Assembly: GCA_001544655.2 (NCBI GenBank)
Contig: FCOD02000045.1
Coordinates: forward strand, 1-38,875
Direction of reading: 5' to 3'
DNA from: Caballeronia turbans
GTDB taxonomy: Bacteria; Pseudomonadota; Gammaproteobacteria; Burkholderiales; Burkholderiaceae
DNA length: 38,875 nucleotides
Below are positions 5,346-19,204 of this stretch, piece after piece (positions within the stretch are counted from its first letter, which is position 1; every line of letters begins with the position of its first letter). The notes under the pieces are model-generated. The model did no database searches. It was given only the letters and a program-made list of their open reading frames with translations, and was not told where the DNA came from. The position numbers and the translations under genes were made by a program.

Positions 5346-7289
5346 TCAGTAATAGCCGCGCGGACGTAGCGGCTCGACGCCTCCGACCGTGCTCATATAG
5401 GTGTTCCACTGCTGCACGAGACTGTCGATGATCGACGGATTCTGCGTCGCCACGTCGTTGTTCTCGCCGCGGTCGGCCTGCAAGTCGAAGAGCTGCCAGT
5501 GTCCATCGACGGGACCGCTCGGCGGTTCGGTCCACAGCGCCTTCCAGCGGCCGTCGGAGCTGCGCAGATAGCCGCGCCCGTAGGCCTCGTCGCCGAATGC
5601 GGCGGTGTGTACTTCGCCCGACGCATCGCCATTGAGCAACGGCAACAGCGATTGACCCGTCACCGGATACACATATCGGTTGTTGTAGACGACCTTGCCC
5701 TTGTTCGAATCGACGCCCGTCAACGTGTTGACGAGCGGCGGTGCAGCTTGCGTCGGCGGATCGATCTTCGCGATCGCGAGGAAGGTCGCCGTGTTGTCGG
5801 TGACGTGCGTGAATGCACGCAGCGTGGGCAGTTGCGCAGCCTGACCGGGCAGATGCACGATGAGCGGCGTCGACACACCGCCTTCGCCCGCGTAGCCTTT
5901 GGTGAGACGGAACGGCGTAGCGCTTACTTCGGCCCAGCGCAGGCCATATTGCAGGCGCTGTGCGTTCTGCTTGCCGTTGTCGGTGCCGAGCGTCGGGTAG
6001 ATCGCGTCCGTCGCGTTCGCGGTGTCGGTTGCGGTCGGGTCGGCGCCAGAATCGATCGGCCAGCCTTCCGCTCCGTTGTCCGACTGGAACATGATGAATG
6101 TGTTGTCGTATTCACCGATGTCCTTCAGATGCTGGATCAACAGCCCGATGTTGTGATCGAGGTTCTCGACCATGCCCGCGTAGATTTCCATATAGCGCGC
6201 CTGCGCTTTCTTCTCCGCGGTGGACAGACTGTTCCAGGACTTGTCGACGGTTCCCGGGCCATAGTCGCCGTAACCTTGCGCTGCGCTATGCACGGCGCTG
6301 ACGTACTTCGCGTTCGCGGCGCCGTTGTTCGCCGTCGCGGGCGATTGAGTCAGTGTTTCCGGAGCACCCCGGTAGGGCGTGAAGTCGGCCGGAATGATGC
6401 CGAGCGCTTTTTGTCGCGCGATGCGCGCACTTCGGATCGCATCGTAGCCGGCGTCATACTTGCCCGCGTAGTTGTGCAGATAAGGCTCCGGCACCTGCAG
6501 CGGCCAGTGTGGCGACGTGTACGCGGCGTACGCGAAGAACGGTTTGCCGTCGCCCTTGTTCGAATCGATGTAGGCAATGAGCTTTTGCGTGTAGAAGTCG
6601 GTCGAATAGAACACGGCCGGACTGCCGCCCGTGCCGCCCGGCTGACCGGGCTGTCCCGGTTGCACGTATTGCCCGTCCTCGGTGTAATTCTTCGAGCCTG
6701 CGGGTTCATGCGCAAAGTGATTCGTCGCCGCGCCGCCGAGCAGCGCGTAGCTGCGCTCGAAGCCCCACTGATCCGGCGTCTGTCCGCCGCCCGTCGCGCT
6801 GCCGACGATGCCCGAGCCGATATGCCATTTGCCCGCCATGTAGGTGTGGTATCCGCCGTCTTTGAGCAGTTGCGCCACCGACAGCGCGCGATCGTTCAAG
6901 TAGCCTTCGTAACCAGGCAGACCCTTGCGCTCGTCGGTGGGCACGCCCATCGTCCCTTCGCCGACGAGATGATGATCCGTGCCCGAAATCAGCATCGCTC
7001 GCGTGATGGCGCAGACGGTGCCGGTGTGATGATTCGTCAGGATGCGGCCCGACTGCACCAGCGCATCGAGGTTGGGCGTATTGATCTCACCGCCGAAGGC
7101 ATGAATGTCCGAGTAGCCGAGATCGTCGGCCATGATGTAGAGGATGTTGGGACGCTTGGCGGCGGAGGCGACAGGCGTTGTGACGGGCGCGCCGTCGTCG
7201 GAAGAACCGCACGAGGCAAGCGTAAACAGACTGCCTATGGCAAGCGCGACTGCGGCGCGACGGAGCGCAATCGAACGGGACGAGATCAT
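5346..7289 (-). CDS. Lipoprotein arylsulfatase with non-canonical CAITR active-site motif
   Basis: 647 residues from ATG 7289. A lipoprotein signal ends in LASC (C27), placing it at an envelope membrane. The sulfatase fold starts at KRPNILYIMADDLGYSDIHAFGG (metal-binding DD), continues with MAGKWHIG and FMFQSDNGAEGW (second DN metal site), and has the AtsA-like block TGTDHH as ISGTDHH. The residue to be converted to formylglycine is C93 in TGTVCAITRAMLISG. The usual pattern is C-x-P-x-R, but here Pro is replaced by Ile while Cys and Arg are kept. Sulfatases hydrolyse sulfate esters to release sulfate. It is the first gene of the four-gene operon with its own FGE. Substrate cannot be predicted; overall resemblance is to large alkyl/arylsulfatases. 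Confidence 0.92.
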   Translation of the reverse strand: MISSRSIALRRAAVALAIGSLFTLASCGSSDDGAPVTTPVASAAKRPNILYIMADDLGYSDIHAFGGEINTPNLDALVQSGRILTNHHTGTVCAITRAMLISGTDHHLVGEGTMGVPTDERKGLPGYEGYLNDRALSVAQLLKDGGYHTYMAGKWHIGSGIVGSATGGGQTPDQWGFERSYALLGGAATNHFAHEPAGSKNYTEDGQYVQPGQPGQPGGTGGSPAVFYSTDFYTQKLIAYIDSNKGDGKPFFAYAAYTSPHWPLQVPEPYLHNYAGKYDAGYDAIRSARIARQKALGIIPADFTPYRGAPETLTQSPATANNGAANAKYVSAVHSAAQGYGDYGPGTVDKSWNSLSTAEKKAQARYMEIYAGMVENLDHNIGLLIQHLKDIGEYDNTFIMFQSDNGAEGWPIDSGADPTATDTANATDAIYPTLGTDNGKQNAQRLQYGLRWAEVSATPFRLTKGYAGEGGVSTPLIVHLPGQAAQLPTLRAFTHVTDNTATFLAIAKIDPPTQAAPPLVNTLTGVDSNKGKVVYNNRYVYPVTGQSLLPLLNGDASGEVHTAAFGDEAYGRGYLRSSDGRWKALWTEPPSGPVDGHWQLFDLQADRGENNDVATQNPSIIDSLVQQWNTYMSTVGGVEPLRPRGYY

Positions 7290-8118: not shown

Positions 8119-9135
8119 CTAGGAAATCGGCTCGAGGTGAACGAGCACTCCGCCTTGTTGAGCGGAAGCGTAGGCCGCGTCCATGACTTGCATCATCAGC
8201 TCCGCGTCGCGCAACGATGCGATCGGCTTTGCGCCGGTTTGGCTCTCGGCGAGCACCCGCTTGACGAACAAGGGGTAGTAGATATCAGTCTCGAGCTGGA
8301 GTCGGCGGCTTCGCGTACCTGCCGAAAGCTGATTCCGGTCGCGGAACTCGATTCTGTCCGGGCCAGACTTCGCGTACATACGGTCCGAAGAAAAAGTGAA
8401 GGAAAATTCGCGCTGCTCGTCGGCGGTACTGGGAAAGCTGTATCCCGTCTCGATAAGGCCGATCACGCCATCTTCGGTCTGCATGGTCACAAGCGAATAG
8501 TCTTCTACGGCGCCTCGATGCGTTCTTGCGTTCATGACGGCCGAGACACGGGCAACCTCCTTGCCTGTGAGCAGCCGGAAAAAATCGATGAAGTGTGTCG
8601 CCAGGTTGATAGTGGATCCACCGCCGGAATAAACGGGGTTGACTGCCCAACCGGAGCCTGATGCTTCGTATCGACTCGGCGGTCCAGCAACGAAACGAAA
8701 TGACATGTAGTTAAAGTCGGATGGTATGCGTCCCTCCGCTTCTCCAAGTGACCCGAGCAACTCGCTCATTCGGAAGATTAGCGGCACCGCGCAATAAAGA
8801 TTCGCTTCTTCGGTCAGCGTGCGAAGCCGGGTGACTTGAGACATGTTGACGCCGCACGGCTTTTCTAACGCAAACGGAATGTTCCGCGCAATTACGGCCT
8901 CGGCAAGCGCAGGCATCTCGGAGTGCCGCCCGAACACGAAAGCGAAATCGACCTTCTCGCGCTCAAGTAACTCGTAGGCCGACGAGTAAAGCTTGCATCC
9001 GAAGCGTGCAGCGATCGCTTCGCCCTTCGCTTGCTGCGCATCGGAGACGGCAACCACCTCGATCCCGGGCGCTTCGAGCGCATCAAGATACAGCGGGACA
9101 TGCCAGTGGCTCACCTCCAACAAGGCAACTTTCAT
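8119..9135 (-). CDS. Gfo/Idh/MocA-family oxidoreductase
   Basis: 338 residues, ATG 9135 with an excellent AAGGAG site eight bases upstream. The fold is recognised by the nucleotide-binding N-terminal half (VVAVSDAQQAKGEAIAARFG, VDFAFVFGRH) and the diagnostic EKP at residues 91-93 (FALEKPCG), where Lys is catalytic in the family. The C-terminal half has GGGSTINLATHFIDFFRLLTG, matching the GGGxxxDxxxHxxDxxxxL block. Oddly, the first loop reads LLEVSHWHVP rather than GxGxxG/A, so cofactor binding may differ. These enzymes use NAD(P) to oxidise or reduce sugars, inositols and related acids. It is the last gene of the minus arm of the IclR locus; position suggests an oxidation step in that pathway. 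Confidence 0.87.
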   Translation of the reverse strand: MKVALLEVSHWHVPLYLDALEAPGIEVVAVSDAQQAKGEAIAARFGCKLYSSAYELLEREKVDFAFVFGRHSEMPALAEAVIARNIPFALEKPCGVNMSQVTRLRTLTEEANLYCAVPLIFRMSELLGSLGEAEGRIPSDFNYMSFRFVAGPPSRYEASGSGWAVNPVYSGGGSTINLATHFIDFFRLLTGKEVARVSAVMNARTHRGAVEDYSLVTMQTEDGVIGLIETGYSFPSTADEQREFSFTFSSDRMYAKSGPDRIEFRDRNQLSAGTRSRRLQLETDIYYPLFVKRVLAESQTGAKPIASLRDAELMMQVMDAAYASAQQGGVLVHLEPIS

Positions 9136-9240
9136 ACATGTTCTCCTTCGTAGATTCCGCCCGTTCTTGATTGAAGGGGTAACAACTGACTTAATTCGGC
9201 CGCTTTTCGCGACTGGGGCCGTGCGTGGCTGCTACGCTGC

Positions 9241-10077
9241 TCACGTCGCGCCGACGTCCACCCCGGCTCGGCCTTCAGGGCGGTAATCGAACCCGAGAAA
9301 GCGCAGTGCGTATAACGCCTGTCCTTGATGCATTGGACCGCCGTCCTGGGTACGGCATCCACGTGCCTGCGCGGCTCGGAGCAGCGGCGTCGGCTCGGCC
9401 GCATTAATGATGTCTACCACGATAGTGCCCGGTGCGAGCCGCTCCGGATCAACTGGCATGGCGTCGCTTGCTTTCATGCCGAGCGGCGTCGCATTGATCA
9501 CGACCTCGAAACCATCCGGATCGGATGGCCCTGAATGCACAGCACGACCCGTTTCGGCGGCGACAGACGCCGCAAGATCCCTGGCACGGTGCTCGTCGAC
9601 ATCGGAGATCGTCAGCTTGCTAGCGCCTGCGTAAGCGACGGCAAATGCGATCGCTCTACCCGCGCCTCCTGCGCCGACGAGAAGCACCGACTTATTCGCC
9701 GGATGGTTGCCTTCCCACTGCATCCCAAGAACGCAGCCGATGCCATCGGATATCGCGCCGACCCAGCGACCATCCGGTTCGCAGCGGATGACGTTGAGCG
9801 CGCCGACCTCGCGAGCAGTCGAATCCAGCTCGTCGACAAATGCGAGCATCCGTTGTTTATGAGGCATCGTGACCAGCATGCCGGACAGATTGCCCATCGC
9901 TCGTGCTCCGCTAACGAAGGCCGAGAGGTTATCTGCCTTGACCCAGAAAGGAACGCAAGCCGCATCGGCGCGCTGTTCGAGAAACAGCCGGTTCAACAGT
10001 TGTGGCGACTTCGCGGAACTCAGCGGGTCGCCTACCAAACCGTAGAGGCGCGTTGTACCTGAGATATGTGATTGCAT
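9241..10077 (-). CDS. Shikimate/quinate dehydrogenase-like protein
   Basis: 278 residues from ATG 10077; no strong ribosome site is visible. The N-terminal substrate domain has GDPLSSAKSPQLLN and VTMPHK (catalytic Lys), then GALNVIR and AISDGIG (catalytic Asp). The Rossmann half has VLLVGAGGAGRAIAFAVAYAGA, and near the C-terminus GGPMHQGQAL carries the conserved Gln. Compared with biosynthetic AroE (HSKS), the first substrate-carboxylate Ser is Ala (SAKS), and the GxNTDG loop reads GAISDG. These changes suggest an SDH-like enzyme with an altered substrate, such as another hydroaromatic or keto-acid, rather than the housekeeping AroE. Its catabolic neighbours (MHS transporter, Gfo/Idh oxidoreductase) agree with that. 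Confidence 0.85.
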   Translation of the reverse strand: MQSHISGTTRLYGLVGDPLSSAKSPQLLNRLFLEQRADAACVPFWVKADNLSAFVSGARAMGNLSGMLVTMPHKQRMLAFVDELDSTAREVGALNVIRCEPDGRWVGAISDGIGCVLGMQWEGNHPANKSVLLVGAGGAGRAIAFAVAYAGASKLTISDVDEHRARDLAASVAAETGRAVHSGPSDPDGFEVVINATPLGMKASDAMPVDPERLAPGTIVVDIINAAEPTPLLRAAQARGCRTQDGGPMHQGQALYALRFLGFDYRPEGRAGVDVGAT

Positions 10078-10220
10078 TTCGGTTTGATGTTCGATCTAGG
10101 ACGAAGGTCAATTCGTGCACATTCGAACCGGCATACGGCGCCGAAGTGCACCTTTGCAGTGATGTCGAGCCTGCGTTGCGCCCACGCGCTGATTACGGCG
10201 AGCAGGCGGCTGGCGGCTGC

Positions 10221-11654
10221 TTAAGACCGCACCTTACTGGCAAACTCGGGTTCAGCGGCATCCTTGCTAGCCGAGGTTATGGCTTCGCTGCGTAGACGCT
10301 CATATTCGGCCTTCGGTACGGGAATCGCGTTGCGGTCGCCCAGATCGGCGAGGCGGATGCGGTAGGTTTCCCGGGTAGTGAACGCCGCAAACGCTGCGAC
10401 CAGGCAGATGCCGAACGTGAGAAAGCCGATCTTCAACGGGATGTTGGAGGACCCGGGGGGCGCGACCGCGACGAAAAGCGACGGCAGCAAGGCACACAAA
10501 GTCGTCCCGACGTTTTGTCCAATCGCCATGCCGGTGACACGCACGCGCGTGCGGAACAGTTCGGGGAAGAGACTCGGGAACACGCCGTTGAAGCCTTGGT
10601 AAGCGACGCCCCACATGAGCATGGAAAAGACCAGTGAGAGCCAGATACTGTGGATGCTGATGGCGTACAGGTAGCCGAAAGCAAGGACCCCGGAGCTCAA
10701 GACGCCGACCAGAACCGGGGGCCTGCGACCAATCTTGTCCGAGAGGTTGCCAACGAGGGGGATCAATATTACGGAGCAAAGGTTGCCAAGCACCGGCACC
10801 CACAGAAAAACGGCGGCAGGAAAGCCAATGCCATACGCCGGCTGGACTGCATAGGTAGCACCGAACACGGTCGCTAGAAGCGCGGTGACCGCGGCAAGTG
10901 CCATGCCGACAACGCGCAAGACATCGCCCCAACTCTCGCGCAGGACCTCGATGACCGGAGAGGGAGGAACCTCTCCGTGTGCCTGTTCTTCAGAAAACGC
11001 GGGGGTTTCATCGACCTCGCGCCGAATGATGTAGCCCGCGATGATCACGACGACGCTCAGCAGAAACGGAATGCGCCAACCCCAGGAAGCAAACTGATCC
11101 TTCGGCATGAAGTGGGCGAGCGGTAAGAAGACGCCTGCCGCGAGGAGTTGCCCTGCCTGCACCCCTTGAAGGGTAAAGCTTGCGAAGTAGCCACGCCGTC
11201 CGAACGGCGCATGTTCGAGAATCATGGAGCTGGCGCCGGACATCTCTCCGGCGACTGCGAATCCTTGAATGAGCCGCAGGATGACGAGCAGCACTGGCGC
11301 CCAGATGCCGATCTGCTGATAGGTGGGCAAGAGGCCAACACACATCGTTGCGACGCCCATTAAGAGCATGCAGAAGATCAAGACCGTCTTGCGTCCGTGG
11401 CGGTCGCCGATGTGCCCGAGCACCATTGCCCCTATGGGTCGTGCGACATAGCCGACGCCAAAGGTCGCCAGGGAAGCGACGATGCCTACCGTTGGATTGT
11501 TTGAGGGAAAGAACAGCTGCGGGAACAGCAATGACGCCGCAGTCGCGTAGATGAAAAAGTCGTAGTACTCGAGCGCCGAGCCGATCCAGCCACTAGCGGC
11601 TGCGATCTTCGACTGGCGCTTGCCGTGAGGCTTAGCCGGTGCCTTTGCGTTCAT
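10221..11654 (-). CDS. MFS transporter, metabolite:H+ symporter (MHS) family
   Basis: 477 residues from ATG 11654. GGAG lies eight bases upstream, overlapping a possible start at 11666 (METG); longer open frames upstream run into iclR on the other strand and are not used. The sequence has the MHS signature: ASGWIGSALEYYDFFIYATAASLLFPQLFF, then GYVARPIGAMVLGHIGDRHGRKTVL (GxxxDRxGRK loop), RLIQGFAVAGEMSGASSMILEHAP, and about 12 membrane helices. The family includes permeases for shikimate (ShiA), alpha-ketoglutarate, citrate and proline/betaine, so the substrate is probably an organic acid. It is the first gene of the minus arm and faces iclR across an 85-base shared control region. Confidence 0.9.
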   Translation of the reverse strand: MNAKAPAKPHGKRQSKIAAASGWIGSALEYYDFFIYATAASLLFPQLFFPSNNPTVGIVASLATFGVGYVARPIGAMVLGHIGDRHGRKTVLIFCMLLMGVATMCVGLLPTYQQIGIWAPVLLVILRLIQGFAVAGEMSGASSMILEHAPFGRRGYFASFTLQGVQAGQLLAAGVFLPLAHFMPKDQFASWGWRIPFLLSVVVIIAGYIIRREVDETPAFSEEQAHGEVPPSPVIEVLRESWGDVLRVVGMALAAVTALLATVFGATYAVQPAYGIGFPAAVFLWVPVLGNLCSVILIPLVGNLSDKIGRRPPVLVGVLSSGVLAFGYLYAISIHSIWLSLVFSMLMWGVAYQGFNGVFPSLFPELFRTRVRVTGMAIGQNVGTTLCALLPSLFVAVAPPGSSNIPLKIGFLTFGICLVAAFAAFTTRETYRIRLADLGDRNAIPVPKAEYERLRSEAITSASKDAAEPEFASKVRS

Positions 11655-11672
11655 GCCTGTCTCCATGGGTGA

Positions 11673-11701
11673 TTGACTTTCCGGTGTTGCTGGTCTATTG
11701 T
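11673..11701 (+). promoter_or_regulatory. Sigma-70-type promoter of iclR operon
   Basis: TTGACT (11673-11678), a 17-base spacer, then TATTGT (11696-11701). This is a good fit to the consensus, and it points toward iclR, whose ATG is at 11740. The dyad described next begins two bases downstream of the -10 hexamer. Confidence 0.55.
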
Positions 11702-11702
11702 T

Positions 11703-11732
11703 GTAACACCGTTCCAATAGGAAGGATGTTAC
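11703..11732. promoter_or_regulatory. 30-bp dyad, candidate IclR operator
   Basis: The left arm GTAACACCGTTCC (11703-11715) and the right arm GGAAGGATGTTAC (11720-11732) are inverted repeats matching at 11 of 13 positions around a four-base AATA spacer. It sits just downstream of the -10 hexamer and upstream of the iclR ATG, and also within the upstream region of the divergent transporter gene. A dimeric regulator bound here could repress its own transcript and affect the divergent one. The link to IclR is inferred from position. Confidence 0.6.
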
Positions 11733-11739
11733 GCAAATC

Positions 11740-12549
11740 ATGAGAGTTGTCAAGGGAGCAGTTGACCGGTCGCTGCAAGCGATCGAGTTGCTCGCACGTG
11801 AGGCGCGCTGGATGCGAATGTCCGACATCGCCGCCGAGCTCGAGTTGGAGAAGGGCCCCGCCCATCGAGTGCTTGCGCAGTTGTGCGAGCAGGGCTGGGC
11901 TGAACAGGATGAACACACATCCCAATACCGTCTGACTCTGAAGTTGTCCCTGCTCGGTCAGCGGTATTTGCATGGGCTTGGCCTGCCGGGCCTGGTGCAG
12001 CCGATCCTCGATGAGGTGGCCGCGCAATGCCGAGAATTGGTTCGCCTGACCGTAGTCAGCGAAGGGACGCTCGCGTGGCTGGCGTCCTCCCAAGGCGCGG
12101 CACCGGGCCTCATGTATTCGCCGTCAATGGATAGCCCGATTACCTTGCATACAACGGCGAACGGCAAGGTGTGGCTGGCGTCGATGCCAAACGACCGGGC
12201 GGTCGAATATGCATTGCGCGGGGGACTCGGAAAAGCAGCCACCCGCGCCTCTGGCCCTAAGGCGATCACCGGCGTCGAGCAGTTGATTCCGGAGTTGGAA
12301 CTGACTCGGCAGCGCGGCTATGGGCTTGTTGTAGAAGAAGCCGAGCCTGGCGTTGCCGCGTTGGCGGTGCCCGTGCAGTCGTTGACCGACGGTACGGTGG
12401 TCGGCACGATGAGCATTGCTGGACCCGTAATGCGCGTTCAGCCCGAGCGTTATGACGACTTCTACACGTTGTTGAAAGAAGCGGCTTCGAAGCTAGGTGC
12501 GGTATGGCCGCGCCGGAGCGTTGAGGCTAACGTAAGTGAGGCGGCTTGA
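11740..12549 (+). CDS. IclR-family transcriptional regulator
   Basis: 269 residues from ATG 11740. AGGAAGG lies about 14 bases upstream, inside the candidate operator. Residues 5-60 form the winged helix-turn-helix (AVDRSLQAIELLAREARWMRMSDIAAELELEKGPAHRVLAQLCEQGW). The C-terminal effector domain has ITLHTTANGKVWLASMP and RQRGYGLVVEEAEPGVAALAVPV, the typical IclR block before the ligand pocket. These regulators respond to small carboxylates of catabolic pathways. Divergent from the MHS transporter and at the head of four enzyme genes, it very likely controls both arms. The next gene begins directly at its stop. Confidence 0.9.
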   Translation: MRVVKGAVDRSLQAIELLAREARWMRMSDIAAELELEKGPAHRVLAQLCEQGWAEQDEHTSQYRLTLKLSLLGQRYLHGLGLPGLVQPILDEVAAQCRELVRLTVVSEGTLAWLASSQGAAPGLMYSPSMDSPITLHTTANGKVWLASMPNDRAVEYALRGGLGKAATRASGPKAITGVEQLIPELELTRQRGYGLVVEEAEPGVAALAVPVQSLTDGTVVGTMSIAGPVMRVQPERYDDFYTLLKEAASKLGAVWPRRSVEANVSEAA

Positions 12550-12551
12550 AG

Positions 12552-13355
12552 ATGACAGCCCCAGCACAGGCCGCCGAGGCAATCGCCAGTCCGCGCGAAC
12601 AGGCAGCACGCCTTCTTGTGACAGCGCGCCAAAAAGGCGCGCTCGTCGAGAGACTGCCCGTCGAGCTACAGCCTGCGAATGTGGACGACGGTTTCGCGAT
12701 CCAGCAAGAGGTCAGCCGACAACTAGGGCGGCGGACTGGCGCATGGAAATGCGCGCTTCCGCGCCCGGGCAAAGTCATCGCCGCTCCGATCTACGACGCT
12801 GATATTCATCGAGGCCTTGCATGTCGCATGCGCGGGTCTCCGCGTGGCTCTGTAAGGGCAGAACCAGAACTGGCCTGCCTACTGGACCGCGATCTGCCGC
12901 CACGGCGTGAAGCCTATGGCGAAGCCGAAGTGCTCGACGCTCTTGGGGACACGCACGTCGCGCTCGAACTGCTGGGCAGCCGCTATGCGCATCCCGAAGA
13001 GCTGACGTTCCCTGAACTACTGGCAGACGGGCTGTTTAACGCGGGCCTGGTTCTCGGACCCCGCGTTAGGCTCCTCGATGGCGCCACGCCGGCTGATCTC
13101 CCCGCGGAATTCAACGTCAGTCTGAGCGGAGTCGGGGAAGAAGCGGTCACCTTGGCGGGACGCCACCCCGATCGGGGCGTGCTCGCGCCGATCGTATGGC
13201 TCGCCAATTTCCTTCGCGTCCGCGGCCTCGGACTGTACGCAGGCCAAGCCGTAATCACCGGGTCTTACGCGGGCGTTCTGGAATTGCCAGTCGGTCGCGA
13301 GCTGCGTATCGGCTTCGGCGAGCTCGGCACATTACCACTTACTTTACTGTTTTGA
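12552..13355 (+). CDS. 2-keto-4-pentenoate hydratase-like protein (FAH superfamily)
   Basis: 267 residues from ATG 12552, two bases after the iclR stop (a TTG two codons earlier overlaps that stop and is less likely). It matches the MhpD/hydratase-decarboxylase branch: GFAIQQEVSRQLG at the N-terminus, GAWKCALP, then VRAEPELACLLDRDLP, whose E-x-E is the metal-binding pair, and VALELLGSRY, equivalent to AxExxDSRx. In the same family it could be a 2-hydroxypentadienoate hydratase, 4-oxalocrotonate decarboxylase or a sugar-acid enzyme. No meta-cleavage genes are present, which argues against the classical aromatic role. It probably acts on a 2-keto-acid intermediate of the IclR-regulated pathway. 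Confidence 0.8.
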   Translation: MTAPAQAAEAIASPREQAARLLVTARQKGALVERLPVELQPANVDDGFAIQQEVSRQLGRRTGAWKCALPRPGKVIAAPIYDADIHRGLACRMRGSPRGSVRAEPELACLLDRDLPPRREAYGEAEVLDALGDTHVALELLGSRYAHPEELTFPELLADGLFNAGLVLGPRVRLLDGATPADLPAEFNVSLSGVGEEAVTLAGRHPDRGVLAPIVWLANFLRVRGLGLYAGQAVITGSYAGVLELPVGRELRIGFGELGTLPLTLLF

Positions 13356-13367
13356 GAGGAGTACTAG

Positions 13368-14261
13368 ATGCGTCTCGTCCGTTTCGGCCCGCCTGGTCAA
13401 GAGCACCCCGGTATCATCGATTCGAGCGGCGCGATCCGCGATCTTACCGGCATCGTGAACGACATTGACGGAACGACCGTCTCACCAGTCGGCCTTGCAA
13501 AGCTGAGCGAACTGGATCTGAGTCGTTTACCTGTCGTTAAGGCAGGGACGCGTCTCGGCGCTTGCGTCGGCAATGTCCGTAATCTCGTGTGCATTGGTCT
13601 GAACTACTCCGATCATGCTGCTGAAACCGACACGCCGATACCGCTCGAGCCTGTGGTGTTCAACAAGCACACGGGCTCCATCAGCGGCCCCAACGACCCG
13701 GTCGTCTTGCCCTCAGACGCACAAAAGCTGGATTGGGAGGTGGAGCTCGGCGTGGTGATCGGCAAACCCGCGTGGCAAATCGACGAAGCCGACGCGCTGG
13801 AGCACGTGGCGGGCTACTGCCTCGCGAATGATGTTTCCGAACGCGCCTATCAGCTCGAACGCGAAGGCCAGTGGACCAAGGGTAAGAGCGGATTTTCGTT
13901 CGCTCCGCTTGGTCCGTGGCTCGTGACGCGCGACGAAGTTCCCGATCCGCAGGCGCTCGACCTGTGGCTCGACGTGAACGGTACGCGCCGTCAGACCGGC
14001 AACACGCGCACGATGATTTTCAACGTCGCGCATATCGTGGCGTATCTCAGCCGCTTCATGCCTTTGATGGCTGGCGACGTGGTCATTACGGGCACGCCTC
14101 CCGGCGTAGGCCTCGGTCAGAAGCCGCCAGTCTTTCTCAAACCCGGCGACACCATGACGCTCGGCGGCAGCGGACTCGGCGCGCAGACCCAAAAGGTCGT
14201 GCAGTACGCAGAGTCTCTTGGCGCGGCCTGGGGCCGCGGCGAATATCCATCGGCACTGTAA
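13368..14261 (+). CDS. Fumarylacetoacetate hydrolase (FAH) family protein
   Basis: 297 residues, ATG 13368 with GAGAGGAG nine bases upstream. An N-terminal lid-like segment (residues 1-65) precedes the FAH catalytic core: VCIGLNYSDHAAETDTPIPLEPVVFNKHTGSISGPNDPVVLP, DWEVELGVVIG (metal-binding E-x-E), KGKSGFSFAPLGPWLVTRDEV and GDVVITGTPPGVGLG. This subgroup is often named ureidoglycolate lyase or 2,4-diketo-3-deoxy-L-fuconate/rhamnonate hydrolase. In a sugar-acid setting the latter role, cleaving a 2,4-diketo acid to pyruvate plus a hydroxy acid, fits best. The neighbouring UxaA-type dehydratase and dehydrogenases support that reading, but the substrate is unproven. Confidence 0.88.
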   Translation: MRLVRFGPPGQEHPGIIDSSGAIRDLTGIVNDIDGTTVSPVGLAKLSELDLSRLPVVKAGTRLGACVGNVRNLVCIGLNYSDHAAETDTPIPLEPVVFNKHTGSISGPNDPVVLPSDAQKLDWEVELGVVIGKPAWQIDEADALEHVAGYCLANDVSERAYQLEREGQWTKGKSGFSFAPLGPWLVTRDEVPDPQALDLWLDVNGTRRQTGNTRTMIFNVAHIVAYLSRFMPLMAGDVVITGTPPGVGLGQKPPVFLKPGDTMTLGGSGLGAQTQKVVQYAESLGAAWGRGEYPSAL

Positions 14262-14291
14262 GACGATTCTATTTTTAAAAAGGGAGGAGAT

Positions 14292-14987
14292 ATGAGCCTT
14301 GCTGGAACGGGCGTCGTCGCAATCTGGCATGACCTGCTGCCGGAAGCGAAAGATGATTTTTACGAGTGGCACAACCGCGAGCACATGCCCGAACGAGCGG
14401 GCATCCCTGGGTTCAGGCGCGGTCGGCGCTTCATAGCAATGGATGCAGGTCCGGAGTACTTCAATCTGTACGAGGCCGACACCGTCGAGGTGCTCGGCGC
14501 GCAAGACTACCTTTCTCGGCTGAATACGCCGACGCCGTGGACCAAGCAGGTCGTCGCCTCTTTCCGGAGCGTCGCACGCTCGATCTGTCACGTCGCCTAT
14601 TCGGACGGCGTTGGGCAGGGTGCCTATCTCATGACGGTGCGCTTCGACGTGCCTTCGGATGCCCGGGCAGAGGTCGTGAAGGGTTTGCGTCAGCGCGTGC
14701 TGCCGCCGCTCGTGGATCTGCCAGGTATCACGGGCGTGCACCTGTGCCTTGCTGACGAAGCGGTCAGCAAGGTGGAAACGGCGGAGAAGAAGGCGCGCTC
14801 AGAAGGCACGCAGGTACCCACGTGGATCGTGTTAGTCGAAGGGTGCCGGGCGGACTATGCGCGTTCAGCCGTGGACCGCTTCGTTTCGGGACTGGCGGCA
14901 TTGCCCCGGCCCGGCGCAACAACGCCGGACACGACGCTTTATCAACTCGAGTACACGCGCTGCAAAACACCCTGGAGCGCTGGCTAA
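14292..14987 (+). CDS. Dimeric alpha/beta-barrel (EthD/DUF4286-like) protein of unknown function
   Basis: 231 residues, ATG 14292 with a strong GGGAGGAG site. It starts GTGVVAIWHDLLPEAKDDFYEWHNREHMPERAGIPGFRRGRRF, the strand-helix pattern of ferredoxin-like dimeric barrels in which the DFYEWHxxEHxPER segment is conserved. A second half (GAYLMTVRFDV, then LPPLVDLPGITGVHLCLAD, then TWIVLVEG) looks like an internal repeat of the same fold. Such proteins are enzymes or accessory proteins in catabolic clusters, with His/Glu in the pocket. I cannot assign a reaction. It is cotranscribed with the FAH gene upstream. Confidence 0.7.
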   Translation: MSLAGTGVVAIWHDLLPEAKDDFYEWHNREHMPERAGIPGFRRGRRFIAMDAGPEYFNLYEADTVEVLGAQDYLSRLNTPTPWTKQVVASFRSVARSICHVAYSDGVGQGAYLMTVRFDVPSDARAEVVKGLRQRVLPPLVDLPGITGVHLCLADEAVSKVETAEKKARSEGTQVPTWIVLVEGCRADYARSAVDRFVSGLAALPRPGATTPDTTLYQLEYTRCKTPWSAG

Positions 14988-15015
14988 GCGGTTAAACGTC
15001 GTCTGTCAACCGCTT
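14986..15015 (+). terminator. 8-bp perfect hairpin between barrel-protein gene and uxaA-like gene
   Basis: AAGCGGTT (14986-14993) and AACCGCTT (15008-15015) form a perfect inverted repeat around a 14-base loop. It begins at the stop codon of the upstream gene. No T-run follows, so it may reduce read-through, protect the mRNA end or be incidental. Confidence 0.3.
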
Positions 15016-15088
15016 CACGGCGCGTCTCGCGAGCCCCATGTGGCTAGGCGCGACCCGCTGTTACCGTGAGAAACGTAGGAGTAGTGCC

Positions 15089-16660
15089 ATGTCGTTGAAT
15101 ATTGCCGACACGTCCGCCCGATCCGCCGCGTCGATGTCGGCTCGTGTCATACGGCTCAATCCTGCCGACGATGTCGTTATCGCACTCGAACAGCTTGTGT
15201 CCGGTACGGTGATTGACAAGGAAGCGGTGACAGTCTCAGGACTGATCCCGCCCGGGCACAAAGTGGCGACACGGGACATCGGGCAGGGTGAGGCGGTGCA
15301 CCGCTATGGCCAGGTAATCGGCTTTGCCAGTCAGCCGATTCGCGCGGGGCAGCATGTACACACCCACAACCTCGCTATGGGCGACTTTGCGCGGGACTAC
15401 GCGTTCGGTCAGGCCGCGCGTCAGACTGTACGCTCGAACGAGCCCGCAACATTTCAAGGCATTGTGCGCGCAGACGGCCGAGTTGCCACACGCAACTACA
15501 TCGGGATCCTTACCTCGGTAAATTGCTCGGCCACGGTTGCGCGAGCCATTGCTGATCATTTTCGCCGCGACATTCATCCAGAGGAACTAGCCGCGTTCCC
15601 GAATGTTGATGGCGTCGTGGCGCTCACACACGGTTCCGGTTGCGCAATCGATTCGGAGGGCGACGGTCTTGCGATTTTGCAGCGCACGCTCGGCGGCTAT
15701 GCATGCCATCCGAACTTCGCAAGCGTGCTGGTCGTGGGTCTCGGTTGTGAAACGAATCAAATCCCGCGACTTCTGGAGACGCAGGGACTCCGAGAACACG
15801 ACCGCTTGCGAACGTTCACGATTCAAGACAGCGGTGGGACCACCTTGACGATCGCGAAGGGAATAGAACTGGTTCGGCGCATGTTGCCAGAAGCAAACAA
15901 CGTAAGGCGAGAGTCGGTCAGTGCAAGTCATCTCACAGTCGGTCTCCAATGCGGAGGGTCCGACGGGTATTCGGGCATTACCGCCAATCCGGTGCTCGGC
16001 GCTGCCGTCGATCTGCTGGTGCAACACGGCGGCACCGCGATTCTCTCGGAGACGCCCGAAATCTATGGCGCGGAGCACTTACTGACGCGCCGCGCCGAAA
16101 CGCCCGAGGTGGGCCGGAAGCTGATTGATCGCATCAAGTGGTGGGAAGCCTATGCGCATCGGCAAGGGGCGCAGATCAACAACAATCCGTCTGCGGGCAA
16201 CAAGGCAGGTGGCTTGACGACCGTTCTTGAAAAATCGCTGGGAGGCATCGCGAAAGCCGGTTCCACCAATTTGACCGAAGTGTACGAGTACGCCCAGCCG
16301 ATCACGGCGCGTGGCCTTGTTTTTATGGACACGCCGGGCTACGACCCAGTGTCGGCAACGGGCCAGGTAGCAGGCGGTGCGAACCTGATCTGCTTCACCA
16401 CGGGGCGTGGTTCAGCTTACGGCTGCGCGCCCACGCCGTCGGTCAAGCTCGCGACCAACACGGCTCTGTGGCAACGACAGTCCGATGATATAGACCTGAA
16501 CTGCGGAGAAGTGTTGGAAGGACGAGCGACGATCGAGCAACTGGGTCGAGTCCTTTTCGAATTGCTGCTAGATGTCGCCTCGGGGACCCGTTCTCGCAGT
16601 GAGCGGCACGGCTATGGACAGAACGAATTCGTACCTTGGCAGATTAGTGCAATCATGTGA
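15089..16660 (+). CDS. UxaA-type (altronate/galactarate) dehydratase
   Basis: 523 residues from ATG 15089, with GTAGGAG ten bases upstream; an in-frame start at 15038 lacks a ribosome site. An N-terminal SAF-like domain (residues about 15-95: VIRLNPADDVVIALEQLVSGTVI, GHKVATRDIGQGEAVHRYGQVIGFA) precedes the UxaA catalytic domain (VRADGRVATRNYIGILTSVNCSATVARAI, LTHGSGCAIDSEGDGLAILQRTLGGYACHPNFASVLVVGLGCETNQI, LQCGGSDGYSGITANPVLGAAVDLLV, ENxxAGGLTT-like NKAGGLTT). The end GQNEFVPWQISAIM is typical of UxaA. The family removes water from D-altronate or galactarate to give 2-keto-3-deoxy acids, using Fe. The substrate here is open, but a sugar acid is likely. Confidence 0.88.
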   Translation: MSLNIADTSARSAASMSARVIRLNPADDVVIALEQLVSGTVIDKEAVTVSGLIPPGHKVATRDIGQGEAVHRYGQVIGFASQPIRAGQHVHTHNLAMGDFARDYAFGQAARQTVRSNEPATFQGIVRADGRVATRNYIGILTSVNCSATVARAIADHFRRDIHPEELAAFPNVDGVVALTHGSGCAIDSEGDGLAILQRTLGGYACHPNFASVLVVGLGCETNQIPRLLETQGLREHDRLRTFTIQDSGGTTLTIAKGIELVRRMLPEANNVRRESVSASHLTVGLQCGGSDGYSGITANPVLGAAVDLLVQHGGTAILSETPEIYGAEHLLTRRAETPEVGRKLIDRIKWWEAYAHRQGAQINNNPSAGNKAGGLTTVLEKSLGGIAKAGSTNLTEVYEYAQPITARGLVFMDTPGYDPVSATGQVAGGANLICFTTGRGSAYGCAPTPSVKLATNTALWQRQSDDIDLNCGEVLEGRATIEQLGRVLFELLLDVASGTRSRSERHGYGQNEFVPWQISAIM

Positions 16661-16891
16661 GCGCGCATCAACATCAATTGACAATCTTGATTCTGCTAAC
16701 CAGGTAGCGGTCTTCGCCGCAGGCCTTTCCTAGGCAGGCGCGTCTATGCGAGGGAGCGCAGTTGGAGGGCGGCTATGCATCGGACATCCGCCGCTCGACA
16801 CTCGCCGGATCGAAGGTCTGCTTGGGGTCGAGGCTGTATAAAAACGCGTTGGTTGCCTATAGTTAGTCAACGGGTCTTTCGACGGTGGCCC
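16661..16891. other. Upstream flank of IS1182-type relic
   Basis: No gene. The sequence from about 16825 (GGCTGTATAAAAACGCG) to the transposase ATG resembles the short leader found before IS1182-type transposases, so the left end of the element probably lies near here. I could not define a terminal repeat. Confidence 0.35.
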
Positions 16892-17456
16892 ATGAAGCGA
16901 TTTATTGAAGGCGCGGCGCGAGATCAAGTTGCACTGCTACCTGAGTGTCCCGACGATTACGTCGATGCCGATAACGCCGTACGGAGCTTGACCTGATAGG
17001 TCTTGGCTTCGAGCGAGCCTCGCCCTCGTTGGTGGGCAGACCGGCATATCATCCGTCGACCTTGCTCAAGCTTTACATCTACGGGTACTTGAATCGAATT
17101 CAATCGAGTCGCCGCCTTGAGCGGGATGCGCGACGGAATCTCGAACTGATCTGGTTGACAGGCCGGCTGGCGCCTGACTTCAAGACCATCGCGGACTTTC
17201 GGAAGGACAACGGCGTTGCGATCTGCAAAGTCTGTCGCGAGTCGTGTTGCTTTGCCGCCGGTTGAAGCTATTCGCAGACGCGACCGTTGCTATCGACGGC
17301 AGCAAATTTAGGGCGGTCAACAACCGTGACAAGAACTTTGCCGGCCGCAAGCTTCCGGCTCGCATGGAGCAACTGGAACAAAGCATTGCCCGCTATAAGG
17401 ATGAGCTGGACCGGGCCGATCGAGAGCCGGCGAGCCTGCCGGTGAACGAATCGTAG
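16892..17456 (+). pseudogene. IS1182-family transposase, frameshifted and truncated
   Basis: Three frames together give a recognisable IS1182-type N-terminal half. From 16892: MKRFIEGAARDQVALLPECPDDYVDADNAVR. From about 16990 in a shifted frame: LIGLGFERASPSLVGRPAYHPSTLLKLYIYGYLNRIQSSRRLERDARRN, then ELIWLTGRLAPDFKTIADFRKDNG. From about 17240 in a third frame: LLCRRLKLFADATVAIDGSKFRAVNNRDKNF. A short internal deletion (the VFVDELDL segment) accompanies the first shift. The frame ends at 17456, where roughly half of a normal protein of about 450 residues is missing, including the end of the DDE domain. It is a dead insertion remnant. Confidence 0.88.
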
Positions 17457-17743
17457 CTCCGGAACTTCGCGCCATCCGCCGTCGATACAGCCGTGTCATT
17501 CTTTGGTATATGACCCCCGCTGATCGATGAGTGGCAACTCGGCGTAGGGCGCGCCAATTTACTAATTGGGGGTTTGCACCGTCGGAGACGCTTGGCAAAC
17601 GCCCTGCCTTATTGATACTAGGTGGCCAATACGCCTCCCGGACAGCCTAAGACGACTGCGAAGTCCAATGAGTGCGCGCTCGAGGTCACGACAGTTCGCG
17701 GCCTTCGTCGGTCTCACGTCGCAAAGCTGTATTTACAACGGTG
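17457..17743. other. Gene-free scar between IS relic and efflux operon
   Basis: No recognisable gene. A perfect 6-bp palindrome with a four-base loop (CCAATT ... AATTGG, 17554-17569) is the only structure seen. The right end of the IS1182 relic is missing, so this is probably a deletion junction. Confidence 0.35.
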
Positions 17744-19204
17744 TTATCGCTTTGCGGTCTCCGGGTCGCGCAGCGCCGTGCGATCCCAGCCGCCTCCTAG
17801 CGCCTTGAGCAGTTGAACGCTAGCATTCAGTCGGCGCGCGTCGATCGTCTCGCCGTTGCGCTGGTTTTCGAGCGCGATGGTCTGCGCGCTGGCGACCTCC
17901 AGATAGTCAACTGCCCCCGCGTGATAGCGGTTCGTCGCGAGCCTCAGTGAGAGCTCGGCGGCGGCCGTCGCTCGCTGCTGGCTCTGCGCCTCCTGCGCCA
18001 GTGTGTTCAGCGTGTTGAGGCTGTCCTCGACTTCCTGAAAGGCCGTGAGTACCGTCTGCCGGTAATCGGCGACGGCTCCTTCGTATTGAGCGTTCGCCTT
18101 GGCGAGCGTGGCCTCGCGGCGGCCGCCGTCGAATAGCGTGCCCGTCAGTTGAGACCCGAGCGACCAGAACAGACTCGATGCTGTGAGCCACGGCGCGAAA
18201 AATGTACTCTCCAGTCCCGCCGATGCCGTAAGCGTGAGATCGGGATAAAAGGCCGCACGTTCAACACCAATCTGCGCATTGGCGGCCGCGACCCGGCGCT
18301 CTGCCGCGGCTATGTCGGGGCGGCGTTCAAGCAGTTCGGATGGCACTCCTGCCGGAATGTCCGGGAGTGTGATCGACCACGTCTTGGACGGAAGAGTGAA
18401 CGAAGACGCCGGCACGCCGCACAGCGTCGCGATGGCGTCCTGCATGTGCGTGCGCCTCACGTCGATGTCGCTGTCCTGCGTGCGGGCGCTTTCGAGTTGA
18501 GTTTGCGCCTGCGCGACGGCGGAGGCATCGACGGCGCCATCGTCAAGCTGCTGCTGGAGGATGCCCAGCGAGGACCCGTAGGCGGTCACAGTGTCGTTGA
18601 GCAACTGCTTCTGACGATCGAGCGAACGTAACTCGAAGTAATCGGCGGCGAGTTCGCTCGTGACCGATAGCCGCACGGCTTCGAGATCAGCCTGGCCTGC
18701 CTGCGAGCTGGCGCTGGCCTGCGCGGTGGCGTCCTTCACCCGGCCGAAGAGATCGGGCTCCCAGCTGGTGACAAGCCCCGCCGAATAGTCGGGAATGGTC
18801 TTTCCCGCGAGAGCCCGATGCTGAAGATTCTGCGACGTGCGAAAGCGCTCCTGTGAAACGCCTGCGCTCACCGTCGGTGCGTAGCCCGCACGCTGATAAG
18901 CTACGATCGCGCGTGCTGCCTCCAATTGCGCGACTGCCTTCTTCACGGTTTCGTTCGAAACATCGACCCGCTCTTCAAGCTGGTCGAGCTCGCGGTCACC
19001 GAATACGGTCCACCAGGGGCCGCGCGGCGTACTATCGCCGGGTGACGCGACCGTCCACCCGGCCGACGGCTGGGCGGCTGAATAGTGCGCGGGAACGTCG
19101 ACAGCAGGCGCACTGTAGCGTGGCAGTGTAGAGCAGGCGCCTAAGGTGCCTGCGAGGCACACGGCAAGCACCGCGCGGAAGGGCGCCGCAGAGAGATCGA
19201 GCAT
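17744..19204 (-). CDS. NodT-family outer-membrane lipoprotein of RND efflux system
   Basis: 486 residues from ATG 19204, 13 bases after the adaptor stop. A lipoprotein signal ends at LGACSTL (C24). Two TolC-type repeats follow: PWWTVFGDRELDQLEERVDVSNETVKKAVAQLEAARAIV and ELLERRPDIAAAERRVAAANAQIGVERAAFYPDLTLTASAG, the latter being the RPDIxxAExxLxAAxAxIGxAxAxxxPxxxL signature, plus coiled-coil helices. It forms the trimeric exit duct across the outer membrane for the permease and adaptor encoded upstream in the same operon. Intact and of usual length. Confidence 0.93.
   Translation of the reverse strand: MLDLSAAPFRAVLAVCLAGTLGACSTLPRYSAPAVDVPAHYSAAQPSAGWTVASPGDSTPRGPWWTVFGDRELDQLEERVDVSNETVKKAVAQLEAARAIVAYQRAGYAPTVSAGVSQERFRTSQNLQHRALAGKTIPDYSAGLVTSWEPDLFGRVKDATAQASASSQAGQADLEAVRLSVTSELAADYFELRSLDRQKQLLNDTVTAYGSSLGILQQQLDDGAVDASAVAQAQTQLESARTQDSDIDVRRTHMQDAIATLCGVPASSFTLPSKTWSITLPDIPAGVPSELLERRPDIAAAERRVAAANAQIGVERAAFYPDLTLTASAGLESTFFAPWLTASSLFWSLGSQLTGTLFDGGRREATLAKANAQYEGAVADYRQTVLTAFQEVEDSLNTLNTLAQEAQSQQRATAAAELSLRLATNRYHAGAVDYLEVASAQTIALENQRNGETIDARRLNASVQLLKALGGGWDRTALRDPETAKR

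Follow-up and report, generated by a model that had tools for sequence, protein, structure and literature searches.

Genes and families of the divergent locus

The subject of this study is a divergent gene cluster of Caballeronia turbans (NCBI GenBank assembly GCA_001544655.2, host genome 7.35 Mb), which lies at positions 8119-16660 of a 38,875-nucleotide stretch of DNA (contig FCOD02000045.1, forward strand; hereafter the window). The cluster contains eight intact open genes in two divergent arms (Table 1), each in the place given by an original prediction that had been made from the sequence alone. One arm encodes an MHS importer, a protein like shikimate dehydrogenases (SDH) and a Gfo/Idh oxidoreductase, and the other an IclR regulator, an MhpD-like protein, an FAH hydrolase, a barrel protein and a UxaA-type dehydratase. 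We tentatively read the locus, whose gene set recurs among soil and plant bacteria, as a route for the breakdown of the cell-wall sugar acid 3-deoxy-D-manno-octulosonate (KDO).

Table 1. Features of the divergent locus, with window positions and strands
Feature	Positions	Strand	Remark
Gfo/Idh/MocA oxidoreductase	8119-9135	-	EKP at 91 and His at 181 present
SDH-family dehydrogenase	9241-10077	-	proposed NAD-dependent 4-dehydrogenase of a cyclic 2-keto-3-deoxy acid
MHS-family proton symporter	10221-11654	-	organic-acid importer by family
Palindromic operator-like site TTGTAACNNNGTTCCANNNNGAANNNNGTTAC	11701-11732	+	between the two arms
IclR-family regulator	11740-12549	+	family match
MhpD-like (2-keto-4-pentenoate hydratase family) protein	12546-13355	+	Glu106, Glu108, Glu141 and Lys68 invariant in 11 aligned
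FAH-family hydrolase	13368-14261	+	55% identity to L-2,4-diketo-3-deoxyrhamnonate hydrolase
Duplicated ferredoxin-like (dimeric alpha/beta barrel) protein	14292-14987	+	relatives annotated DUF4286; proposed cofactor-free isomerase/tautomerase
UxaA/GarD-family sugar-acid dehydratase	15089-16660	+	proposed D-arabinonate dehydratase

The FAH-family hydrolase is identical at 149 of 271 positions to L-2,4-diketo-3-deoxyrhamnonate hydrolase (8gsr) and carries His83/Glu86, the catalytic pair named for C785_RS20550 in PMC6336799. According to PMC6336799 and PMC11199699, enzymes of this type cleave R-CO-CH2-CO-COOH to pyruvate and R-COOH. The protein scored 412.7 bits against model NF053535, under the equivalog cut-off of 500, and is therefore a relative of LRA6 rather than a proven equivalog. 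An enzyme of this type suits sugar-derived 2,4-diketo acids. In Route III, the non-phosphorylative pathway of L-rhamnose and L-fucose (LRA5-LRA6, FucF-FucG), the same kind of 2-keto-3-deoxy acid passes through a 4-dehydrogenase and an FAH-type hydrolase to give pyruvate and a hydroxy acid. The original prediction saw a catabolic locus that was related to this route but different from it, with the SDH-like enzyme as the odd part, and our comparison agrees on both counts. There is no SDR-family dehydrogenase among the eight window genes; the 4-dehydrogenase would instead be of the SDH family, and a second dehydratase pathway would follow the hydrolase. The window also adds an MHS importer, and barrel, MhpD-like and Gfo/Idh proteins.

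The SDH-like protein has a Shikimate_dh_N domain with the catalytic Lys/Asp and falls under the cut-off of each shikimate/quinate dehydrogenase model listed. Its active site keeps the Lys, Asn, Asp and Gln positions and has Ala for the first carboxylate-site Ser, while an Asp at the cofactor-selecting position is of the NAD type; the roles of these residues are those we presume for the family. AroE is marked by two carboxylate-binding serines and an Asn-Thr-Asp motif. In all seven aligned locus SDHs the first Ser position is Ala, and the Asn of the motif is Ile or Val. Because these AroE marks are missing, we do not file the protein as a shikimate dehydrogenase. The seven locus SDHs formed a clade of their own in a 28-sequence tree (support 0.987). 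Over the aligned parts, the window protein is 36% identical to 4k28 of Pseudomonas putida and 39% identical to the 5-ketofructose reductase 7cok. PDB 4k28, which we take to be of the RifI2 class, shares the family and the NAD-type Asp with the window protein, but it falls outside the clade in this small tree; we know of no natural role for RifI2. The reductase 7cok acts on a sugar, so members of the SDH family can do so. Plasmids of Rhizobium leguminosarum (L091 6403-12544) and Azospirillum brasilense (L093 6408-12540) carry an SDH-like gene with genes for a UxaA-family dehydratase, a DHDPS-family protein, a DegT aminotransferase and an aldehyde dehydrogenase. This is another type of sugar-acid locus with an SDH homologue, apparently not characterised before.

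The UxaA-type protein has SAF and GD_AH domains, and its start was placed at ATG 15089 rather than 15038 because a stretch like a ribosome-binding site precedes 15089. Its Cys 146/185/220/288 match in their spacing, with a shift of 12, the four conserved Cys 134/173/208/276 of the D-arabinonate dehydratase C785_RS13685. PMC6336799 describes C785_RS13685 as active on D-arabinonate and far less so on D-altronate, L-fuconate and L-galactonate, four acids that share the C2-C4 configuration. Among 249 genomes of the bacterial family, a search turned up 29 new UxaA loci (three of them window orthologues), and 15 places were read by eye with longer flanks. The genes seen near UxaA were UxaB/UxuA; DHDPS and KGSADH (alpha-ketoglutaric semialdehyde dehydrogenase); DHDPS, MFS and a hydroxyacid dehydrogenase; SDR and ABC; or, at a distance of some kb, AroQ and SDH (L134). 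We rejected a substrate assignment from UxaA alone, as paralogues of 57-81% identity sit in several contexts. A fragment of a further UxaA-type gene lies on another contig of the same genome (C81; L183 5350-5955).

For the remaining proteins, library matches were as follows. Domain scores in the window were 43-54 bits for the Gfo/Idh domains, 73 bits for Shikimate_dh_N, 84 bits for IclR_C, 238 bits for FAA_hydrolase and 344 bits for GD_AH_C. The MHS protein matched TIGR00883 (374 bits) and a shikimate transporter model (286 bits), each under its cut-off. PDB sequence matches of the Gfo/Idh protein were weak (best E 1.5e-8). Neither the MhpD-like nor the barrel protein matched a Pfam family at E 0.001; against NCBIfam the former gave weak matches (best 36 bits, HpaH) and the latter none. 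The barrel protein has a duplicated ferredoxin-like fold of the dimeric alpha/beta barrel superfamily, and its fold matches (sulfur oxygenase reductase, anthrone-oxidase-like, PenE and chalcone isomerase) do not indicate a function. Assigning a substrate from this protein was also rejected, its family being spread over several kinds of context (eight plasmid regions were opened first).

An 85-bp gap separates the starts of the MHS gene (11654) and iclR (11740). It holds a 32-bp palindrome-like stretch, TTGTAACACCGTTCCAATAGGAAGGATGTTAC, which is recognisable across 16 aligned relatives. With up to three mismatches allowed, the consensus of this site occurred once in the 7.35-Mb genome and its reversed control not at all; the site was likewise absent from 100 shuffles of the window. 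Searches of ten relative genomes gave 14 matches in nine of them, every one inside the locus by coordinates, and none in the tenth (L060). One of the 14 lies at the second iclR copy of P. tuberum (G302:C5:140096). Two copies in Pseudomonas sp. MIACH (L056; C57:66654 and C57:72712) flank an inserted KGSADH-UxaA-LysR-COG3970 cassette. This distribution reads as that of one dedicated regulon, and IclR may control both arms from a single operator. P. tuberum and P. sprentiae each carry a second IclR paralogue (85-86%) close to the locus (L048 1593-2402, L067 2882-3694).

Conservation and modules in relatives

A scan of GTDB genomes with the barrel protein as query found close relatives only: 26 loci in 24 strains, which belong to Paraburkholderia, Caballeronia, one 'Burkholderia sp.', Pseudomonas and one Burkholderiales metagenome-assembled genome. 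Gene counts in these loci rest on tblastn under fixed identity thresholds and a coverage of no less than 20%. Besides the barrel gene used as query (26), we counted MhpD-like in 22, FAH in 21, MHS and IclR in 20 each, UxaA in 19, COG3970-like in 18, Gfo/Idh and SDH in 16 each, KGSADH in 11, cupin in 10 and an alpha/beta hydrolase in three, L067 among them. All eight window genes occur together in 10 of the 26, which bears out the conserved co-occurrence that the original prediction had proposed to look for. Contig or locus ends truncate about ten of the remaining 16 loci; L041 and L061 seem to be broken copies, and L049 is without SDH at that place. The distribution is patchy, with a barrel protein of at least 80% identity in five of 37 same-genus genomes, the host included. 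No publication joins these genes by name in the literature searched, whose coverage leaves out most subscription journals; two papers bring together three of four of them, in neither case with the SDH.

The downstream module is separable from the upstream genes. One stretch of a plasmid of Paraburkholderia sp. 22B1P (L086) holds aldehyde dehydrogenase-COG3970-porin-Gfo-SDH-MHS / IclR-MhpD-FAH-barrel-UxaA. In Pseudomonas lini, separate contigs carry LysR-UxaA-KGSADH-COG3970 (L138) and Gfo-SDH-MHS-IclR-MhpD-FAH-barrel (L058). The upstream genes of Caballeronia catudaia (L063) are retained but have no neighbouring UxaA, and the sole UxaA of its genome at E 1e-100 adjoins a UxaB-like gene. In both L063 and L058 the sequence in which a UxaA gene beside the core would lie is present.

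The COG3970-like FAH-superfamily protein (390-415 residues) occurs in at least three arrangements across relatives: one locus group has it to the left of Gfo/Idh and a second group to the right of UxaA, and in Pseudomonas it lies between iclR and the UxaA cassette. Its only Pfam match was FAA_hydrolase, at 23-32 bits and in one of three cases under the cut-off; no NCBIfam model matched at E 1e-30. The COG3970 label, which we take to be that of the 2-keto-3-deoxypentonate (KDP) dehydratase group of Watanabe et al. 2019, was given from length and sequence and not from a library match. The KGSADH-like genes are of two distant kinds. The aldehyde dehydrogenase of L043, L046, L054 and L086 has 480 residues and finds its best NCBIfam model in the alpha-ketoglutaric semialdehyde dehydrogenase GucD (521.6 bits in L086, cut-off 770). 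Other loci have a protein of 523-526 residues, which scored 120.7 bits with the GucD model in L056 and had no match at E 1e-30 in L066; its role as KGSADH is taken from length and context. Since relatives add COG3970-like and KGSADH genes, a C5 sugar acid is the expected input of the UxaA branch and 2-oxoglutarate its expected end product. The aldonate should thus be a pentonate, with D-arabinonate as the best guess.

A paralogous core of SDH, FAH and barrel genes is found, without UxaA, in CoA-transferase-type clusters; its products share 34-56% identity with the window proteins, and some of the loci also have IclR. A D-erythronate-dehydrogenase-like gene lies beside this core in three of the 12 such loci examined. 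In Rhizobium WL3 the SDH (13183-14004), FAH (14001-14849) and denD (14854-15828) genes are contiguous on one strand, and otnI and ltnD lie near them on the opposite strand, followed by otnK and otnC. WL3 was chosen among the matches listed (best 40 of 282), of which three were opened, because its SDH and FAH genes overlapped; one of the other two (L165) has the core without D-erythronate genes and the other (L164) has no core. A decayed copy in Rhizobium RCAM05350 has the order FAH-barrel-SDH-denD-otnI-otnK-otnC, and the same-genus genome G008 has a denD-like gene (47% only), a porin and an MFS gene beside FAH. The D-erythronate pathway (DenD-OtnI-OtnK-OtnC) differs from the proposed one in that its aldonate is C4 and not C5, and it lies outside the window. 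An SDH-FAH core beside C4-aldonate genes is nevertheless as predicted for a core that releases an aldonate; a D-erythronate product would need a C7 acid.

We considered the CoA-transferase-type clusters as a key to the substrate and left them unexplained. Locus L164, with uxuA and a sialic-acid-type TRAP transporter some kb from FAH, was opened as a possible FAH relative; it has neither SDH nor barrel annotated and was not used. The host genome has a paralogous cluster of its own (L033 2833-16656, L084) with LacI, an ABC importer, MaoC, enoyl-CoA hydratase, barrel, FAH, CoA-transferase, SDH, IclR and aldo/keto reductase.

Around the locus, apparent transposase remnants were seen by eye at 16880-17520, past the end of the UxaA gene, a place that COG3970 occupies in some relatives; a loss or move of downstream genes is possible. 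A sulfatase-like open reading frame of 647 aa (5346-7289) lies to the left and one of the outer-membrane efflux type, perhaps the end of an efflux operon, at 17744-19204, both read by eye. The window flanks held no clear remnant of COG3970, KGSADH or porin genes, the best tblastn match being 28 residues of a porin (E 0.006).

A candidate KDO pathway and its rivals

Based on the gene content, its conservation, the operator-like site and the conserved residues, we propose a model for the reactions, their control and the substrate. In this model the locus imports and degrades a C8 2-keto-3-deoxy sugar acid in series, most likely KDO. The MHS symporter would import the acid, and the SDH-family enzyme would use NAD+ to oxidise the C4 hydroxyl of its pyranose form. 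The barrel protein, joined by the cupin in some relatives, may help ring opening or keto-enol exchange of the resulting 2,4-diketo acid, a role suggested by the fold. FAH would hydrolyse this acid to pyruvate and D-arabinonate, which the UxaA-type enzyme would dehydrate to D-2-keto-3-deoxypentonate. Finally, the COG3970-like dehydratase and KGSADH, whose genes adjoin the locus in relatives and here lie on different contigs, would lead to 2-oxoglutarate. If FAH releases pyruvate and D-arabinonate, the substrate must be a C8 acid with the D-arabino configuration at C5-C7, that is, KDO or its C4 epimer. Near the oxidised position the KDO pyranose resembles quinate: a carbon with OH and COOH, then CH2, then CHOH. 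This likeness would explain why an SDH-family enzyme was recruited.

The model places FAH before UxaA, supplying the substrate of UxaA; in a parallel order FAH would act after UxaA, as in Herbaspirillum huttiense. We favour the series order because the upstream unit exists without UxaA beside it (L063, L058), because the paralogous core occurs without UxaA, and because a D-erythronate-type gene adjoins that core in three of 12 loci. The parallel order belongs to our main rival reading, in which imported D-arabinonate, or a like C5/C6 aldonate, meets UxaA and then passes side by side through Route II (COG3970, KGSADH) and Route III (SDH or Gfo/Idh as the 4-dehydrogenase, FAH giving pyruvate and glycolate). 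H. huttiense serves both routes with enzymes of the same kinds, its 4-dehydrogenase being an SDR; it shares with our loci a UxaA-family dehydratase, a COG3970 dehydratase and an FAH hydrolase, and treats the two routes as alternative fates of KDP, while no SDH, Gfo/Idh or barrel gene is mentioned (all from the available part of PMC6336799). The presence of UxaA in the DNA of 19 of the 26 loci also suits such plain pentonate catabolism, and Gfo/Idh might act as an aldose dehydrogenase, with the alpha/beta hydrolase of L067 as its lactonase partner. But two redundant branches would need to be kept together in many loci, the dehydrogenase here is not the SDR of Route III, the core persists without UxaA in L058 and L063, and in L163 and L074 the paralogous core stands with C4-aldonate genes and no UxaA. 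We consider this reading unlikely, though the likeliest of the rivals.

The original prediction left the choice between a sugar acid and a hydroaromatic, quinate-like acid. We favour the sugar acid because relatives add COG3970-like and KGSADH-like genes and because the paralogous core meets C4-aldonate genes; the hydroaromatic half of that proposal keeps some weight, through SDH relatives of 39-45% identity in two quinate/shikimate-type loci. One, in Rhizobium NZLR1, includes QuiC-like, AroQ, Gfo/Idh and pca genes, and the other, in Klebsiella, a QuiC-like protein and an MFS transporter. Under such a route a quinate/shikimate-type SDH would act on a cyclohexane carboxylate whose ring is opened, Gfo/Idh would make a second ketone, and FAH would cleave the diketone. 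In its favour, the shikimate transporter is a member of the MHS family, homologues of the barrel protein are found in aromatic loci, and L134 has AroQ- and SDH-like genes some 3-4 kb away from a UxaA of 71%. However, AroQ, QuiC and pcaH had no match in 28 labelled loci, none of the eight window genes is AroQ/QuiC or a protocatechuate gene, it is not evident what a quinate product would need a UxaA-COG3970-KGSADH tail for, and the FAH type suits diketo acids from sugars. We regard this route as quite improbable. Only slightly less doubtful to us is the same series scheme with another acid, such as a C8 epimer of KDO, a nonulosonate, a KDO glycoside or a substituted form, in which Gfo/Idh, the MhpD-like protein and the cupin do extra steps. 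This would give room to the unplaced conserved genes and agrees with a core that is modular with different downstream modules, but no independent evidence points to any particular acid.

Several observations weigh against the KDO model itself, besides the SDH and L134 similarities just described. The UxaA protein is about 70% identical (by eye) to a copy in the same genome beside a UxaB-like gene, probably a true D-altronate dehydratase, so that the UxaA substrate is not readable from sequence. UxaA relatives are also widespread, 150 of the 249 genomes of the bacterial family having them at E up to 1e-150, and their presence somewhere in a genome thus means little. The window is without COG3970 and KGSADH genes: the sole COG3970-like match of the genome (58%) lies on C65, where IclR-type and sugar ABC transporter genes adjoin it, and C72 holds both strong KGSADH-like matches (74% and 56%). 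The DNA read around the other nine of the 12 CoA-transferase-type loci held no D-erythronate-type gene, and the CoA-transferase, MaoC and, in part of the loci, enoyl-CoA hydratase genes of this variant find no explanation in the scheme. KDO glycosidases or aldolases were not recognised by eye in the loci read, in which no systematic search for them was made. The main weakness is that the Gfo/Idh, MhpD-like and cupin genes are conserved yet have no step in the scheme. It is possible that barrel and cupin serve ring opening or tautomer exchange, Gfo/Idh a second substrate form, and the MhpD-like protein the hydration of an unsaturated form. Because these conserved proteins, and with them the barrel, lack a firm place in the scheme, our confidence in KDO stays below one half, although it remains the reading to which we give the most credence.

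Possible meaning for KDO recycling and the SDH family

We further suggest, with more reserve, a general modular pathway for 3-deoxy-2-ulosonates, in which an SDH acting as a quinate-mimic 4-dehydrogenase works with a barrel protein and an FAH hydrolase, and each substrate has its own aldonate module. KDO would give pyruvate and D-arabinonate (the window type), and a C7 homologue, for example 3-deoxy-arabino-heptulosonate, would give pyruvate and D-erythronate (the WL3 type). Non-phosphorylative routes for 2-keto-3-deoxy acids are known; the series order, the SDH-family dehydrogenase and the C8 substrate would be new. We know of no earlier KDO catabolic route with genes attached. Among the papers listed by literature searches on KDO catabolism, none was evidently on a bacterial KDO catabolic gene cluster; given the journals covered, this counts for little as evidence of absence.

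Nearly every Gram-negative lipopolysaccharide contains KDO, as does plant rhamnogalacturonan II, and this abundance implies recycling on a large scale. The locus offers a gene set, an operator-like site and a predicted chemistry for such recycling, and a possible role for some orphan SDH-family dehydrogenases. If the general pathway is true, a branch of SDH homologues would thereby gain a physiological role.

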